64,000 bases of DNA from Sphingorhabdus sp. SMR4y (GTDB lineage Bacteria > Pseudomonadota > Alphaproteobacteria > Sphingomonadales > Sphingomonadaceae), in NCBI RefSeq assembly GCF_002218195.1, contig NZ_CP022336.1, positions 2,909,001-2,973,000 on the forward strand, read 5' to 3'. The stretch's first letter is position 1. Each line of letters begins with the position of its first letter. Positions 6,936 to 60,453 of the stretch are shown one piece after another. Made by a program: the position numbers and the translations under genes. The notes beneath the pieces are model-generated. The model did not search any database, was not told the origin of the DNA, and worked only from the letters and a program-made list of their open reading frames with translations.

Positions 6936-6999
6936 GATGCGGAGCCCTGCGCTACCCGCACCCGTTCTTGCCTCCAGCGCTCCGCATCGCGTGCGGAGC
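6936..6999. terminator. three-arm hairpin between convergent nitroreductase and acs
   Basis: GATGCGGAGC (6936-6945) is complementary to GCTCCGCATC (6979-6988), and GCTCCGCA (6979-6986) is also complementary to TGCGGAGC (6992-6999). The middle arm can therefore pair in two ways. The element fills the 93-bp gap between two convergent genes, so a two-way transcript end is the simplest role. There is no U-run; a REP-like element is the alternative. Confidence 0.5.
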
Positions 7000-7011
7000 A
7001 TGTTTACGCGG

Positions 7012-54572: not shown

Positions 54573-54647
54573 TGGGGTGTCGCCAAGTGGTAAGGCAGCG
54601 GCTTTTGATGCCGCCATGCGCAGGTTCGAATCCTGCCACCCCAACCA
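54573..54647 (+). tRNA. tRNA-Gln (anticodon TTG)
   Basis: Begins TGGGGTGTCGCCAAGTGGTA, anticodon loop CTTTTGA with TTG, T-arm AGGTTCGAATCCT, acceptor end CACCCCA, discriminator A and encoded CCA at 54645-54647. The acceptor stem pairs fully. It marks the left border of the AT-richer island; the 3' end contains CCCAACCAAT, which recurs at 60586. Confidence 0.96.
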
Positions 54648-55532: not shown

Positions 55533-55766
55533 CTATTTCTTGACCGCTTTTTTGGCACTAGCTTTCCGTCGTGGCGCTGATGCTTTGCCTTTATCAGCCT
55601 GAATTATCGCAGAGAGTTCGCGAGAAAAATTTTTCGAAACGGAGGTAACAATCCGATCCATACGTTGCTCACGAGTGCTTTGGCGAAGTGAACCGAAAGT
55701 AAATTTGTGAGGACCGCTGGCGGCCAAATCGACGATGAGGGATTTTCGTTCGCGGGTCTTGTTCAT
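55533..55766 (-). CDS. small basic protein coupled to the proteasome-like gene
   Basis: 77 residues from ATG 55766, overlapping the stop of the preceding gene (ATGA). The sequence has a hydrophobic/polar first half (SLIVDLAASGPHKFTFGSLR), a helix (MDRIVTSVSKNFSRELSAII) and a histone-H1-like Lys/Ala tail (KGKASAPRRKASAKKAVKK). The tail would favour binding to nucleic acid, acidic protein or membrane. No family recognised. Coupling suggests it works with, or is a substrate/adaptor of, the 415-residue protein. Confidence 0.6.
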   Translation of the reverse strand: MNKTRERKSLIVDLAASGPHKFTFGSLRQSTREQRMDRIVTSVSKNFSRELSAIIQADKGKASAPRRKASAKKAVKK

Positions 55767-57010
55767 TTCCCATTCCTTTTCTGAAATCCGGGGTTCAGAG
55801 ATACATCAAAATAGTGCTTACGCCGAACCCACACGAAACCTTCGTTTCTGGTGAGAATTGCAACATCAATTGGGCCGCCAACGGTTTCCTGCTGGCTGGA
55901 ATAGCGTCGCTTGCGAGATGTGAGCTCGACAAGCGAATATGCAAATTCACCCAATTCTTTTTTGGACAAATGCGCTACTACAGAACTTAACTCTTTTCGC
56001 GAGAGATTTTTCAACCGTCCGATCCCATTACGGATACTCTGGTTTGCGGTTTCCCTTATTTTTTCCGTTAGGGTAATGTCTGCCGATCCAGAAAGCTGTG
56101 TGACCAAATCAGAGGTCATATTATCTACCAGCTTTTCTAAACTTTGTTCGAATTCACTATCAATGCCATCAATAAATCTTTCTGGCATATCGGTTTGAGC
56201 AAACGCTCTCAGTTCAGCTTTCAGGCCACGGCGATCAATATCAGTGACTTCTCTCTCTCCAACTACCCTGAGTTCGCCAAAATAGATCCCATCACATTTT
56301 ATATGGTTAAGCGAAGGAAAAATATCGTTATGGCCCAGCCCTGCAATCACAAAGCCGGTATGAGCATCTGATAAGGTCGATGAACGGACGAGATCAAAAG
56401 CAAATCCTTGCAACTCTTTGAGCAAGGCGTCGCTGAGCTTATCGAAAGCGAGTTTGGCGACTTCTTCAACGCAATCACCATATCTGCCTGCAAAGTTCGC
56501 TTCGCTTGTGCTTTCCAAGAATTTGTCAATCCGTGTTCGGCGCAATTCTATCCGACGCTTTTTCGCTAGGTCGAGAAAAAATGCGTCTGGCTCCTGCTTC
56601 GTTCCTTTGCCTTTTGGAAAGGAGAGCTGCTTAACCATTTCATTGAACTGCGCTTCTCGCATCTGGCTGAACTCAACATCAAGAAGGCTTTCCAGATGCG
56701 TGCACTCGTCTTCGAGTTCACGGGGAAAAGCTAGCAGGAAAGTCTCAAATACCGGCCAGACCTGAACTAGCGCTGCAAATTGCCCAGAGGTGAGAGTTTC
56801 CCTGAAGCGGCGTGCGATAATCTCCAGCGGAGCATTCATAAACTCCGCATTGTTATAAATCATCAACCCGATAGGTTGATAATGCGACAGCTCGAAAATC
56901 TTTTCGGCGGAATCGTAGGTTTTAGAACTGCCTGGTCCGGAGATAGTCACAATGCTATCGGCGGCCAAGGCAACCGCTGTGCGATTCAAAATCGCTATTT
57001 CAGCAGTCAT
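55763..57010 (-). CDS. proteasome/HslV-like Ntn-hydrolase protein of unknown function
   Basis: 415 residues. After removal of Met1 the chain would start with Thr2, as in HslV. MTAEIAILNRTAVALAADSI lines up with proteasome beta and HslV N-termini so that Asp18 falls on the catalytic Asp17 position, and AEKIFELSHYQPIGLMIYNN places Lys37 near the catalytic Lys33 (three residues of extra loop). A later strand pair, TGFVIAGLGHNDIFPSLNHI then CDGIYFG, resembles the proteasome core. The chain is about twice the length of HslV, with a helical C-terminal half. This looks like a real N-terminal-nucleophile peptidase or amidase; the substrate is unknown. It is encoded with an Xre regulator upstream and a small basic protein downstream, divergent from a ubiquitin-like operon. 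Confidence 0.72.
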   Translation of the reverse strand: MTAEIAILNRTAVALAADSIVTISGPGSSKTYDSAEKIFELSHYQPIGLMIYNNAEFMNAPLEIIARRFRETLTSGQFAALVQVWPVFETFLLAFPRELEDECTHLESLLDVEFSQMREAQFNEMVKQLSFPKGKGTKQEPDAFFLDLAKKRRIELRRTRIDKFLESTSEANFAGRYGDCVEEVAKLAFDKLSDALLKELQGFAFDLVRSSTLSDAHTGFVIAGLGHNDIFPSLNHIKCDGIYFGELRVVGEREVTDIDRRGLKAELRAFAQTDMPERFIDGIDSEFEQSLEKLVDNMTSDLVTQLSGSADITLTEKIRETANQSIRNGIGRLKNLSRKELSSVVAHLSKKELGEFAYSLVELTSRKRRYSSQQETVGGPIDVAILTRNEGFVWVRRKHYFDVSLNPGFQKRNGK

Positions 57011-57122
57011 TGTTGCTAGGAATAAAGATGAGTTTTGCCTCCGACTGGAATTATTCTATCAGCCACGCACTAGCTTTTTGCAAGAAGAGATGTGCTACCC
57101 GCGCTCTTGATAACGAGCGAGT

Positions 57123-57485
57123 CTATTCTTCCGGGGTGTTCTTCAATCCCATATAGGCAGCTGTAACCATGCTAATCATCGCATCCCGGCCATTTTTGTT
57201 GAGGTTCGGATCGTTGCGCAAATAGCTGGTAATTTTTGTGAGCGAACCAGAAGCCGAAGCTAAACTACCTTCGGCTTTCAAATAGTCATCTGCGCTCAAA
57301 CCCGCCCAACTGACAAGCGCTGCCAAGCTGTCAACATCAGGTCTTTTCCCTTGGGCAAGCCGCGTCAGAGTCGATGCACTAACACCGGAAAGTTCTGATA
57401 CTTCCTTCCAGTTGAGGCTGCGGCTTGTGCGTTCACTGTCAAGCGCTTGAAAAAAGCCCATATTGTTAAATTCTGTTTTCGACAT
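57123..57485 (-). CDS. Xre-family helix-turn-helix regulator
   Basis: 120 residues. LNWKEVSELSGVSASTLTRL with AQGKRPDVDSLAALVSWAGL is a clear Xre/Cro-type helix-turn-helix (about 20-65), followed by a short helical tail (LNKNGRDAMISMVTAAYMGL). It lies between the proteasome-like gene (same strand, 113 bp downstream) and the ubiquitin-like operon (opposite strand). Two dyads lie in the 90-bp divergent region, so it probably controls both directions. Confidence 0.85.
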   Translation of the reverse strand: MSKTEFNNMGFFQALDSERTSRSLNWKEVSELSGVSASTLTRLAQGKRPDVDSLAALVSWAGLSADDYLKAEGSLASASGSLTKITSYLRNDPNLNKNGRDAMISMVTAAYMGLKNTPEE

Positions 57486-57499
57486 TGAATTTCACTCTT

Positions 57500-57550
57500 G
57501 CAATTACAATTCCTATGACCTATATAGGAATTCAATTGCATAAATGCAAT
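57500..57550. promoter_or_regulatory. two dyads in the divergent promoter of the ubiquitin-like/proteasome-like cluster
   Basis: Dyad 1: AATTCCTAT (57508-57516) and ATAGGAATT (57524-57532), 7-base spacer, extended outward by a further imperfect GCAATT/AATTGC pair (57500-57505 and 57534-57539). Dyad 2: ATTGCAT-AA-ATGCAAT (57535-57550). Both lie between the divergent Xre gene and the UBL-E2 gene; operators for the Xre protein are the simplest reading. Confidence 0.65.
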
Positions 57551-57575
57551 TAGTAATCGCTTATGGAGCTTAATA

Positions 57576-58670
57576 ATGACTAAGACAATTGACATGAAAG
57601 ACGAATATATTTTGCAAATTGCAGGCACGGACTTGAATTACCGGTCTGTAGTGGTCGCCGATCATACGCCGACGGCGTTGCAGATTCTCAAAGCTGGCGG
57701 ATTTAAGGATCTGGATCAAAAGACGGTCATCCAAATTTTGCCAACTGGTGACATGGAAGAACGGCGGCCCGCTGAAAATTGTGATCTTGCATCGCGCAAG
57801 CCCAACCGCTTCATAATTGCTGATGCTGATTGCCTTTTTCGTTTTATTCTCGATGATAGCCATCTGGTCTGGCCGGAAGATTCGATTTCCGAAGAAAAAT
57901 TGCGCGCGATCGGCAATGTCAATGACAAGGCCGATATCTTCATCCGCCGCGAAGTTGAAGTGGATGAAGTTCTGAATAAAGGTGACACGCTCGATTTGAC
58001 AGCTTTGGGAACAGAAGTGCTCTACTCCAAATCTTCGCGCTGGAAACTCAATGTCCAAGGTGTAAAAATCGAGAGCGTAGATCCAGAAATCTCTGTCAGC
58101 GATGCCTTGCGTCAGGCTGAATTTGATCCCGACCAAGGTTGGATTATAATTTTGAAATCAGCCAGCGGTAAACGTCAGGTTGATCTCGATTTCATTATCG
58201 ATTTGCGTGAACCTGGAATTGAGAAGCTACGTTTGACGCCCAAGGAAATTAACAATGGTGAAGTTATCGCCGAATATCGCCGTGATTTCAAATTGCTTCC
58301 GATTGATGAAAAGCATTTGAATGAAATGGGGGCAGATTGGGAGACAATCATTGATGGCGCGCGGCGCTGGTTCGTCTATCATGCCTATATACTGCCAAGC
58401 GGATATAATGTGGAACAGATTGATCTCGCCGTCGAGGTGCCGACCAACTATCCCGGCGGACAGTTGGATATGTTTTTTTGCTATCCGGCCCTAACGCTGT
58501 CTGCGGGCAATATTATTGCCCAGACGCAAACCATTGAAAGTATCAAAGGACAGAGCTTCCAGCGGTGGTCTCGTCATCGGGGTCATTCTAGCCCATGGAA
58601 TCCACAAAAAGATAATCTGATAACGCATCTGGGCTTGGTTGAAGAATCTCTCGTGCGCGAGGTAGGCTAA
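57576..58670 (+). CDS. triple ubiquitin-like (Multi_ubiq) protein fused to an E2-like domain
   Basis: 364 residues. Three tandem beta-grasp repeats can be traced: about 8-72 (YILQIAGTDLNYRSVVVADH), 74-150 (NRFIIADADCLFRFILDDSH) and 152-228 (RWKLNVQGVKIESVDPEISV), the last ending in VDLDFIIDLREPGIEKLRL, the usual Multi_ubiq close. From about 232 a prokaryotic E2/UBC-like domain follows, with VPTNYPGGQLDMFFCYPALT, Cys302 as the only cysteine there, and WNPQKDNLITHLGLVEESL. The protein ends ...REVG. No internal GG cut sites are seen. GGAG stands 8 bases upstream of ATG. Its stop overlaps the next start (TAATG). Fused forms of this kind are known from multi-ubiquitin operons. Confidence 0.82.
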   Translation: MTKTIDMKDEYILQIAGTDLNYRSVVVADHTPTALQILKAGGFKDLDQKTVIQILPTGDMEERRPAENCDLASRKPNRFIIADADCLFRFILDDSHLVWPEDSISEEKLRAIGNVNDKADIFIRREVEVDEVLNKGDTLDLTALGTEVLYSKSSRWKLNVQGVKIESVDPEISVSDALRQAEFDPDQGWIIILKSASGKRQVDLDFIIDLREPGIEKLRLTPKEINNGEVIAEYRRDFKLLPIDEKHLNEMGADWETIIDGARRWFVYHAYILPSGYNVEQIDLAVEVPTNYPGGQLDMFFCYPALTLSAGNIIAQTQTIESIKGQSFQRWSRHRGHSSPWNPQKDNLITHLGLVEESLVREVG

Positions 58671-60067
58671 TGGACCGTAAATGGACTCTGGCTCTTAGCG
58701 GTTTTCAATATGAGCGACTTCAAGCGCATTTGCATCCCGGAGATGGCCTTGAAGCTGCAGCGATATTGCTCTGCCGCCTGGTAACTGGTGATCGCTCACG
58801 ATTGCTGGTGTATAATTATATTCTGGCTCCCTTGACATCGAGCGCGCGAGAGAGAGACCATATTATATGGCCCGGCGAGGTTTTGTCTCGTGCGATTGAT
58901 AGTGCTGAAGATGAAGGTGCGAGCCTTGTCCTGATCCATTCTCATCCAGGGTCCATGCTCGCTTTTTCATCCATTGATGACGTTAGCGATAGAGACATTG
59001 TCCCACATATTTTTGCAGGCTGGTCTGAACAAAGCCCAGCTCGCTACCATGGTTCAGCGATAATGACACCGGATGGCGCCATTCGTGCGCGTATCTATGA
59101 TGCTGAGCACAACGAGCAAATGGTAGATTTGGTGACAGTGGTCGGCGATGATATCAAATATTTTTGGTTGGAAGATATTGAAGGCAGCAATCCGCCTGCA
59201 GTCGTTCAGCCTTTTTGTGATGGCATGACCGATAAGCTTGGCCGACTTTCAGTTGGTATCGTCGGCGCATCTGGCACAGGGTCCATTACGGCAGAGCAAG
59301 CCGCCAGAATGGGATTTGGCGAGATTAACTTGATTGATTTTGATTTAGTTGAGCACAAGAACCTCAACCGGATATTGAACAGTTCCATCGCCGATGCTCA
59401 GGAAAGCAGGCTTAAAGTTAATATGCTCAAAACAGCGATTGAGAGTTACCGCGATAATTGCGCCGTTAATGCATATCCGCTCAATATTTCCGAACGAGAG
59501 GCTGTTTTGGCTGCTTCAAAGTGTGATGTTCTTTTCGGCTGCGTCGATTCTCTCGAGGGCCGGTATGCGCTCGATTTGCTTGCACAAGCCATGTTGCTGC
59601 CCTTGTTCGATGTGGGGGTTACTATTCCCACACGGGTATCGACCGACGGGCGTGTAGTCATATCGGATGCATTCGGACGAATTGATTATATCCAGCCAGG
59701 GCGTTCCACTTTATTCACCCGCGAGGTATATAACTCTGAATCTTTGCGAGCAGAATATCTCGCCGCAGCAGACCCGGACGCGTTTCGCGATGAAGCGGCG
59801 GAAGGATATATCAAAGGCATCGCGCACGAGGCACCAAGTGTTATTGCTTTAAATATGCAGGCGGCCAGCGCTTCTATGCTCGAATACATTGCTCGTGCTT
59901 TTCCGTTTCGCCATGAGTCCAATGCCAATTATGCGCGGACAATCTTTTCGATCGCGTCGGCGGAGCAAGATCACTTTGCAGAGAACAGCTTCTCGACCGA
60001 GGAGCATCCCTTGTTTGCGACCGGGCTACGAGAACCGCTACTCGGCATCCCCTCTCTATCAGAGTAA
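58670..60067 (+). CDS. JAMM (JAB) peptidase - E1-like (ThiF) fusion protein
   Basis: 465 residues. N-terminal JAB/JAMM domain with Glu28 (DGLEAAAILLC), His90-x-His92 and Asp103 in IHSHPGSMLAFSSIDDVSD, the full zinc-protease set, so it should cut isopeptide or C-terminal peptide bonds of the ubiquitin-like protein. The E1/ThiF domain starts near 193: GIVGASGTGSITAEQAARMG (nucleotide loop), LIDFDLVEHKNLNRILNSS with Asp223, Asp225 and the Arg234 finger, and FGCVDSLEGRYAL. The place where ThiF/E1 relatives carry the Cys pair (PG-x-x-C) here reads IQPGRSTLFTREV, and no Cys occurs after residue 291. It probably activates the UBL of the preceding gene. Confidence 0.85.
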   Translation: MDRKWTLALSGFQYERLQAHLHPGDGLEAAAILLCRLVTGDRSRLLVYNYILAPLTSSARERDHIIWPGEVLSRAIDSAEDEGASLVLIHSHPGSMLAFSSIDDVSDRDIVPHIFAGWSEQSPARYHGSAIMTPDGAIRARIYDAEHNEQMVDLVTVVGDDIKYFWLEDIEGSNPPAVVQPFCDGMTDKLGRLSVGIVGASGTGSITAEQAARMGFGEINLIDFDLVEHKNLNRILNSSIADAQESRLKVNMLKTAIESYRDNCAVNAYPLNISEREAVLAASKCDVLFGCVDSLEGRYALDLLAQAMLLPLFDVGVTIPTRVSTDGRVVISDAFGRIDYIQPGRSTLFTREVYNSESLRAEYLAAADPDAFRDEAAEGYIKGIAHEAPSVIALNMQAASASMLEYIARAFPFRHESNANYARTIFSIASAEQDHFAENSFSTEEHPLFATGLREPLLGIPSLSE

Positions 60068-60072
60068 AATTT

Positions 60073-60423
60073 ATGAAGATTTGGAAGAAGTTTGTTGCAT
60101 GGCTCTGGACTTTCAGGGGAGGTTACGCGGTTCGCTATGTGGAAAGCGATGAACTGCCATCCAATTTGGCAAGACAGACGCTCACCGTTGCGCGTGAAGA
60201 TGGCGAATTATGGGTGGCAGGGATGATCTGCCCGTGTGGCTGCAAGGCCAAGTTGGAGTTGATGCTTTTGGAAGAAGCAAAGCCTCGCTGGGATTTGCGG
60301 GTTGATAAAAAAGGGCGTCCAACCCTCAGCCCTTCCGTCTGGCGCAATCAAGGTTGCAAAGCCCATTTCTGGCTACGAAATGGCAAAATATTTTGGTGCC
60401 GGGAATCAGCGGCCAGCGCCTGA
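60073..60423 (+). CDS. DUF6527 family zinc-binding protein
   Basis: 116 residues. ICPCGCKAKLELMLLEEAKP (Cys53, Cys55, Cys57) and NQGCKAHFWLRNGKIFWC (Cys95, His98, Cys109) form a likely metal site; between them stands PTLSPSVW with a conserved Ser. This matches the DUF6527 proteins that accompany multi-ubiquitin/E2/JAB-E1 operons. Proposed roles include a conjugation cofactor or a processing peptidase; I cannot decide from sequence. It starts 5 bp after the E1 stop. A perfect 20-bp hairpin overlaps its stop codon. Confidence 0.75.
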   Translation: MKIWKKFVAWLWTFRGGYAVRYVESDELPSNLARQTLTVAREDGELWVAGMICPCGCKAKLELMLLEEAKPRWDLRVDKKGRPTLSPSVWRNQGCKAHFWLRNGKIFWCRESAASA

Positions 60424-60453
60424 TCTCATTTACAGATCAGGCGCTGGCCGCTG
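60407..60453 (+). terminator. perfect 20-bp hairpin overlapping the operon's last stop codon
   Basis: CAGCGGCCAGCGCCTGATCT (60407-60426) and its exact complement (60434-60453), 7-base loop CATTTAC. The DUF6527 stop (TGA 60421-60423) lies inside the left arm. No U-run follows. It may be a transcript end or 3' stabiliser, or a recombination-type inverted repeat. Confidence 0.75.

Follow-up and report, generated by a model that had tools for sequence, protein, structure and literature searches.

A predicted proteasome-fold hydrolase in the controller position of a bacterial ubiquitination-like operon

In a 64,000-nucleotide stretch of the genome of Sphingorhabdus sp. SMR4y (contig NZ_CP022336.1, positions 2,909,001 to 2,973,000; here called the window), we found a bacterial ubiquitination-like (Bub) operon, probably carried on a genomic island, which lacks the usual stress-switch genes and has in their place a gene for a 415-amino acid (aa) protein predicted to adopt the fold of proteasome-like N-terminal nucleophile (Ntn) hydrolases, hinting at a novel means of inducing operons of this kind. 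Parts of a published study (PMC13373217) describe CapH+CapP, CapW and CapK+CapS as DNA damage-responsive controllers of Bub and other operons, with CapP cleaving the repressor CapH, and count CapW or CapH+CapP at 219 of 544 Bub operons and CapK+CapS at 59. We tentatively favour the explanation that the Ntn hydrolase stands in for CapP, the repressor-cutting protease of ImmA/IrrE type, and put its chances not far below even.

The slot upstream of BubA, the ubiquitin-like (UBL) protein of the operon, holds regulators, as seen when the neighbouring genes of 85 Bub loci were clustered. These loci comprised 80 from a scan for relatives of the window's E1-like enzyme, the window itself (L090), three loci chosen because they carry Ntn (L016, L018 and L020), and L084, which is the same locus as L156. 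Once seven loci with less than 2.3 kb upstream of BubA had been set aside, 78 remained, 73 of them from the scan; 71 of these 73 carry a known controller (an ImmA/IrrE protease, CapK+CapS or CapW) and two (L118 and L149) carry Ntn. Across all 78, we counted 56 loci with an M78 (ImmA/IrrE) peptidase identified by homology cluster, including fusions to a helix-turn-helix (HTH) domain or to UvrD/PD-(D/E)XK, two with an HExxH motif only, 11 with CapK+CapS, three with CapW and six with Ntn. No known controller was found in any of the six Ntn loci, all with enough flank, and no locus among the 78 had neither. A looser, motif-based rule, which shifted two loci between known controller classes, gave 59 M78-type loci, 10 with CapK+CapS, two with CapW and one with two controllers, and so the same division of 72 controller loci versus six Ntn loci. 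In the window, no M78/HExxH, WYL or CapK/CapS-cluster gene was found within 3.6 kb upstream of the Bub operon, while an Xre-family repressor is present. Six further Bub loci on plasmids were examined through their annotation: four have an HTH and an ImmA/IrrE gene in the same place, and in the other two the HTH gene is next to one for a hypothetical protein. Controller labels are those of BLAST clusters, with gene calls in fetched contigs taken as longest open reading frames (ORFs); when single representatives were compared with Pfam, M78 and WYL passed the cut-offs, while matches to CapK and CapS fell below them, so that these two names rest on likeness to the published description. The two motif-only loci, L092 and L095, are to be read against a motif background of 10 in 1449 ORFs.

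Two proteins recur in this slot. In 16 of the 78 loci (one counted twice; for example L114:5345-8767), BubA is directly preceded by the gene for a protein of about 1140 aa, often accompanied by two more conserved genes. The one representative scanned combines an M78 peptidase, a UvrD helicase and a PD-(D/E)XK nuclease, and the protein is perhaps a further controller sensing DNA damage. In 11 Bub loci (L143:8082-8696, L020:4931-5524 and nine more), a protein of about 200 aa often occupies the place that Xre has in other Bub loci; it looks sigma factor-like by eye, and two representatives had no Pfam match. At L020, this sigma-like gene (comp 9) is followed by a small gene and then by Ntn, while the same order ends in an M78 peptidase at L105 and L143, the small genes of the three loci being compared by position and not by homology.

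The repressor that faces the Bub operon in the window belongs to an Xre family, here called XRE-win, that is found in nine of the 85 Bub loci; at one of them, L136, only 2 bp separate the repressor gene from that of an M78 peptidase. The pattern TTGC-N6-GCAA is present at the BubA promoter in all nine XRE-win loci, versus one of the 76 others, namely L113, which is the sister of L135 in the E1 tree. In the window, this pattern lies at the centre of an 8-bp inverted repeat without mismatches. Since it occurs six times in the window as a whole, when two would be expected, the pattern by itself proves little, and the argument is its conservation at the promoter. As in CapH+CapP systems, the window thus has an Xre repressor encoded divergently from the operon, an adjacent putative protease gene and a candidate operator in the shared promoter. 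It differs from them in the protease, which is a predicted proteasome-fold Ntn hydrolase rather than an M78 metallopeptidase; in CapH+CapP systems, cleavage of the repressor is activated by ssDNA.

The Ntn protein had no Pfam match at E ≤ 1, and hence none to the Pfam proteasome or HslV models, and no match in NCBIfam or PADLOC; a sequence search of the Protein Data Bank gave nothing convincing (best E 0.022, to an Smc protein). It is a member of phrog_5990, a family of unknown function (6e-78, residues 1-412). An AlphaFold2 model built from 43 sequences (pLDDT 90, pTM 0.86) matched yeast proteasome subunit beta5 with a VIA Z of 17.3 over 188 residues (root-mean-square deviation, rmsd, 3.8), with residue 2 of the model being the first aligned, on residue 1 of the beta5 chain. 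Foldseek gave E 4.8e-5 and TMt 0.54 to proteasome beta, and Anbu matched nearly as well by VIA (Z 16.6). The predicted fold is therefore proteasome-beta-like, bearing out a claim made by an earlier sequence-only reading of this DNA. The catalytic residues that this reading had placed at Thr2, Asp18 and Lys37 held up as well: Asp18 and Lys37 are invariant and Thr2 is at least 90% conserved across the 43 rows of the family alignment, in which L118 runs from an internal start (in another alignment the L024 row lacks its first residues), and the three would correspond to the Thr1/Asp17/Lys33 triad of proteasome-like Ntn hydrolases. The model also has two helical insertions, at residues 99-208, after the first helix pair, and at residues 285-346, between the second pair. 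In this it fits the PMI-4 type ("proteasome homolog with multiple insertions") of Fuchs, Alva and Lupas (2021, PMC8665760), which, in the parts of that paper drawn on here, shares the proteasome-like core, the Thr/Asp/Lys triad, insertions after H1/H2 and between H3/H4, and occurrence in phages. The assignment is by anatomy, with the insertions judged by eye against the published description, to which the Bub link and a small downstream gene would be additions.

The Ntn and Bub genes of one clade have diverged together to about 50% identity. The GTDB scan for E1 returned 216 relatives, and among the best 80, ranked by closeness to the window, two carry Ntn (L118 from Sphingomonas and L149 from Shinella). 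In the E1 tree (85 rows), the window, L091, L118, L106, L016, L018 and L149 form one clade (97/91), of which L091 and L106 lie on contigs that stop short. In the Ntn tree (66 rows, after four of 69 non-redundant rows, L197, L029, L030 and L089, each a fragment or very divergent, had been omitted and L149 added), six linked copies, L020 not among them, fall into a single clade (100/99); the unlinked L024 stands beside it, and phage-borne sequences come next. The same loci pair in both trees, although support for joining the window to L118 is low in the E1 tree (87/60). Compared with L118, L016, L018 and L149, the window shows 49-52% identity in Ntn, 49-51% in BubAB and 50-54% in BubCD, and the closest pair shows 98/97/95%; these parallel identities persist despite three different gene orders among the linked loci. 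The Mesorhizobium plasmid locus L020 is far from the window clade in both trees and is therefore probably a second Ntn-Bub pairing, with an exact position in the tree that is unsure because of its long branch. The window's genome holds a single Ntn copy by family search. A separate oddity of the clade is L091: this contig, 6.9 kb long and assigned to a marine "Oceanobacter" metagenome-assembled genome, carries a 96% identical BubCD, which points to either a recent transfer or misbinning.

In the mechanism that we favour, the Xre repressor would bind TTGC-N6-GCAA sites in the shared promoter and keep the Bub operon off, and the Ntn hydrolase, helped or restrained by its small partner protein, would take the place of a CapP-type protease or another controller; upon a stress or phage signal, Ntn would act as an active protease with Xre as its substrate, inactivating it and allowing the UBL-conjugation genes to be expressed. 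Several lines of evidence point this way: the division of the slot between known controllers and Ntn, with no known controller in any Ntn locus; the adjacency of an XRE-win repressor to an M78 peptidase at L136 and the retention of the operator at every XRE-win promoter; the tracking of BubAB and BubCD identities by those of Ntn; the gene order of L020, with an M78 peptidase in the Ntn position at L105 and L143; and the published cleavage of CapH by CapP, together with the frequency of CapW or CapH+CapP at Bub operons.

Several observations weigh against this explanation. Four of the six Ntn loci entered the set for their Ntn or as the window itself, and as there are only two independent lineages, the split between controllers and Ntn reflects a few events and not 78. 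Five of the six clade loci have an SDH-type ClpP-like protease and an unassigned 196-236-aa protein, either of which could do the controller's job instead; both are absent from the window, and they accompany the Ntn-bearing loci L016, L018, L149 and L118, where the unassigned protein measures 205-236 aa, but not L020. One representative of this protein had no Pfam match; by eye, we take it to resemble an ADP-ribosyltransferase. Where the locus comes from Rhizobium, Shinella or Sphingomonas, the Ntn gene runs towards Xre and so lies outside its operon, and a search for the Xre operator before Ntn in these convergent loci did not find one. Elsewhere in the Ntn family, Xre is the upstream neighbour in three of 61 cases by Xre profile (seven by eye), leaving unsupported the idea that the family is generally an Xre partner. 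Finally, two linked Ntn copies look broken: that of L118 loses its reading frame close to the start (about 6971-7007) and that of L017 (6001-7241) is split, as is bubA of L017, with sequencing errors possible at both loci. One arrangement outside the Bub loci also involves Xre: in a streptococcal satellite phage (L012:4328-6206), Ntn directly follows a Gp49 and Xre pair resembling a toxin-antitoxin module.

The plus-strand half of the cassette is a Bub operon, a known system. It encodes a 364-aa Multi_ubiq and Prok-E2_E fusion, a 465-aa Prok-JAB and ThiF protein, and a 116-aa DUF6527 protein, a homologue of which lies near E1 in 83 of the 85 Bub loci. The window's BubCD aligns with the solved Citrobacter BubCD over residues 13-464 (E 1e-118), and its JAMM residues H90/H92/D103 are more than 97% conserved (86 rows). 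The fusion, which is also found in most relatives fetched, matches BubA and BubB of Citrobacter, and the glycine on which solved BubA ends aligns with Gly228, the predicted processing site of this multi-UBL protein. Cleavage after Gly228 is supported by two plasmid relatives in which BubA and BubB are separate genes (L253:5215-5574 and L256:5258-5599) and the standalone BubA ends ...QTEG; the JAB part would presumably perform it. An AlphaFold2 model of the fusion (pLDDT 89.8) shows three beta-grasp domains, consistent with the label UBL3 given from the sequence, a low-confidence linker at residues 227-231, and then an E2-like domain which superposes on solved BubB (Foldseek TMt 0.97, rmsd 0.8); the relative placement of the domains is unsure because pTM is 0.49. 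All the genes of what had been called a complete conjugation operon are thus present, but the E2-like domain has no conserved cysteine: the sole candidate site is a cysteine in only 11 of 43 rows, and solved BubB carries a valine there. A QRWSRHR motif is strongly conserved in this domain, in the window (58260-58667) and in its relatives. As the cysteine is not conserved while this motif is, the chemistry of the Bub E2-like domain may, to judge by sequence, differ from that of a normal E2.

The layout of the cassette is given in Table 1. Every gene listed by the sequence-only reading was recovered at the same coordinates and on the same strand, among them the small basic protein coupled to Ntn, and so was the divergent control region. 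That reading had set Ntn head-to-head with the UBL operon; the arrangement is indeed divergent, but the gene facing the operon is Xre, with Ntn behind it on the minus strand after a gap of 112 bp. The divergent or upstream placing of a regulator is shared with other Bub systems; what sets the window apart is that the published controllers are missing and that an Ntn hydrolase holds their position. Because alignments to congeners break at tRNA-Gln and the GC content falls beyond it (from about 0.58 to 0.45-0.53), the cassette is probably on an island. Of seven congener loci compared, one lies on a contig ending at the tRNA site; in five of the six informative loci, alignable sequence ends no more than 11 bp from the 3' end of the tRNA gene, and in the sixth about 200 bp further on. 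The island is drawn from this left edge and the GC content, since a search of 19.5 kb revealed neither a right end nor a second copy of the tRNA 3' end.

Table 1. Coordinates, strands and supporting evidence for features of the Ntn-Bub cassette, in positions of the window
Feature	Coordinates	Strand	Evidence or remark
tRNA-Gln(ttg)	54573..54647	+	ARAGORN; left edge of variable, lower-GC region bearing the cassette
77-aa basic protein	55533..55766	-	4-bp overlap with stop of Ntn gene
415-aa predicted proteasome-like Ntn hydrolase (phrog_5990; PMI-4-like)	55763..57010	-	PHROG match, AlphaFold2 model, conserved T2/D18/K37
Xre-family repressor, family XRE-win	57123..57485	-	HTH_3, 24.5 bits
Divergent control region, 90 bp	57486..57575	none	inverted repeats 57508-57532 and 57534-57551; predicted Xre operator TTGC-N6-GCAA 57536-57549
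BubA part, three UBL domains to Gly228 (predicted cleavage site)	57576..58259	+	Multi_ubiq 55 bits; model; solved Citrobacter BubA
BubB part, E2-like domain	58260..58667	+	Prok-E2_E 125 bits; solved Citrobacter BubB
BubCD, JAB peptidase and E1-like adenylyltransferase	58670..60067	+	Prok-JAB and ThiF; 400 bits to solved Citrobacter BubCD
DUF6527 protein	60073..60423	+	87.9 bits

How far the association between Ntn and UBL genes extends bears on all the explanations. Ntn was found in 10 of 398 Pseudomonadota genomes and in 16 of 385 Alphaproteobacteria genomes (three genomes being common to both samples and two contigs shorter than 5 kb), and in each sample only the window's copy lies beside a UBL operon; one locus in these samples was equated with the plasmid locus L251 by its coordinates. 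Conversely, Multi_ubiq was found in 15 of the 398 Pseudomonadota genomes at E ≤ 0.001, 13 of them above the family cut-off, and no Ntn was found in the fetched flanks of the other 14 (one on a 3.4-kb contig). Beyond Pseudomonadota, Ntn was sampled through phage, plasmid and viral-contig collections. The fetched flanks of 80 viral-contig Ntn loci (the best 80 of 139) held no UBL gene; nor did the seven records inspected of the 13 phage records with Ntn, these being prophages and streptococcal satellite phages. Plasmids gave a different picture: 10 of 72,556 records have Ntn and 89 have a window-like E1 (E ≤ 1e-20), and among the 60 E1 records listed at least five have both side by side, where chance would give about 0.01, although the four Rhizobium records among them are related and two of these are near-identical R. 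gallicum plasmids, one judged from match tables only. Bub lies within about 5 kb of Ntn in these five (four Rhizobium and one Mesorhizobium), and no Bub genes were found in the fetched flanks of the other five Ntn records. Chance neighbourhood was therefore rejected, on these counts and on the parallel identities. So was a general link of the Ntn family to UBL operons, as most copies examined, in phages, satellites and chromosomes, have no UBL neighbours. The outcome that the sequence-only reading had named as refuting its case, an Ntn family almost always without a UBL operon nearby, is thus largely what we see for the family, but not for one clade and one separate lineage, in which the link is non-random.

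These counts lend some weight to a different explanation, in which Ntn and its small protein form a mobile module of their own, for defence against phage or for lysogenic conversion, and are found on the same islands as Bub operons without acting together with them. The family's presence on prophages, streptococcal satellite phages and plasmids without UBL genes would fit such a passenger, as would the even division of the Ntn plasmid records between those with and those without an adjacent Bub operon, the frequent small downstream gene of its own, the varying gene orientation between linked loci, and the position of the window copy near tRNA-Gln in a variable region. Co-inheritance with Bub, which extends to pairs only about 50% identical and shows in matching trees across three gene orders, and the lack of a known controller in all six linked loci with enough flank argue against it, and we regard a passenger cassette as rather unlikely. 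In related viral contigs (L194, L211, L222, L235, L249, L250 and others), Ntn and its small ORF face a conserved gene, family c1, whose product has about 118 aa, with membrane-protein-like and lysozyme-like genes nearby by eye, a typical moron position.

A direct role in the pathway, as proposed in the sequence-only reading, would have Ntn degrade or trim Bub-modified proteins, as a bacterial analogue of the ubiquitin-proteasome route. The predicted proteasome-beta fold with its catalytic residues, the stable linkage to conjugation genes in one clade, and the second (SDH/ClpP-like) protease in most clade members are what such a route would lead one to expect. Nothing beyond proximity supports the tagging and degradation itself: no AAA+ domain was found among the seven local ORFs scanned (55.5-61.4 kb), Ntn is lacking and a known controller present in 71 of the 73 related Bub loci, the neighbours point to the controller slot, and most Ntn copies have no UBL genes nearby. 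In addition, large helical insertions of this kind could, according to the sections of Fuchs et al. used here (PMC8665760), prevent ring assembly. Tagging followed by degradation or processing is accordingly unlikely, and the particular form in which the Bub pathway is coupled to its own proteasome-fold protease as a compact tag-and-destroy system outside the Pup-proteasome is decidedly so. According to the passages of PMC13373217 drawn on here, protection against phage has not been demonstrated for Bub.

The small gene downstream of Ntn raises a further alternative. In 51 of 65 loci, mostly phage-borne, the gene after Ntn is a small ORF on the same strand, versus 62 of 477 control genes, in a comparison not corrected for ancestry. 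That Ntn acts on this small protein as a connectase-like ligase or maturation protease, with the product working in the Bub pathway or on phage, would accord with these counts and with connectase as an example of a specific ligase with this fold (PMC8665760, in part), but is very improbable, given that the small proteins are highly diverse, that inspection by eye established no shared substrate motif among them, and that the ORF is found in only two of 10 full-length Ntn copies newly fetched from Alphaproteobacteria and is absent from that position in the other eight.

A search of the Creative Commons-licensed PubMed Central literature found no proteasome-like gene reported with Bub operons or as a controller, although an earlier mention in the main Bub papers (Gong 2025, Ye 2026) is possible; likewise, "NTN" does not occur in the consulted portions of a 2006 survey of prokaryotic ubiquitin systems (PMC1779556). 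Fuchs et al. describe 22 proteasome homologues, and the parts of their paper cited here report no genomic context or co-occurrence suggesting a specific function for them (PMC8665760). A protein fitting one of these 22 context-less homologues is now tied to a UBL-conjugation operon. Were tagging and degradation to prove true after all, the finding would be relevant to the origin of the link between ubiquitin tagging and proteasome-type proteolysis. The controller position of Ntn, for its part, leads to a definite prediction, namely that a proteasome-fold protease would switch on an immune-type operon by destroying its repressor.

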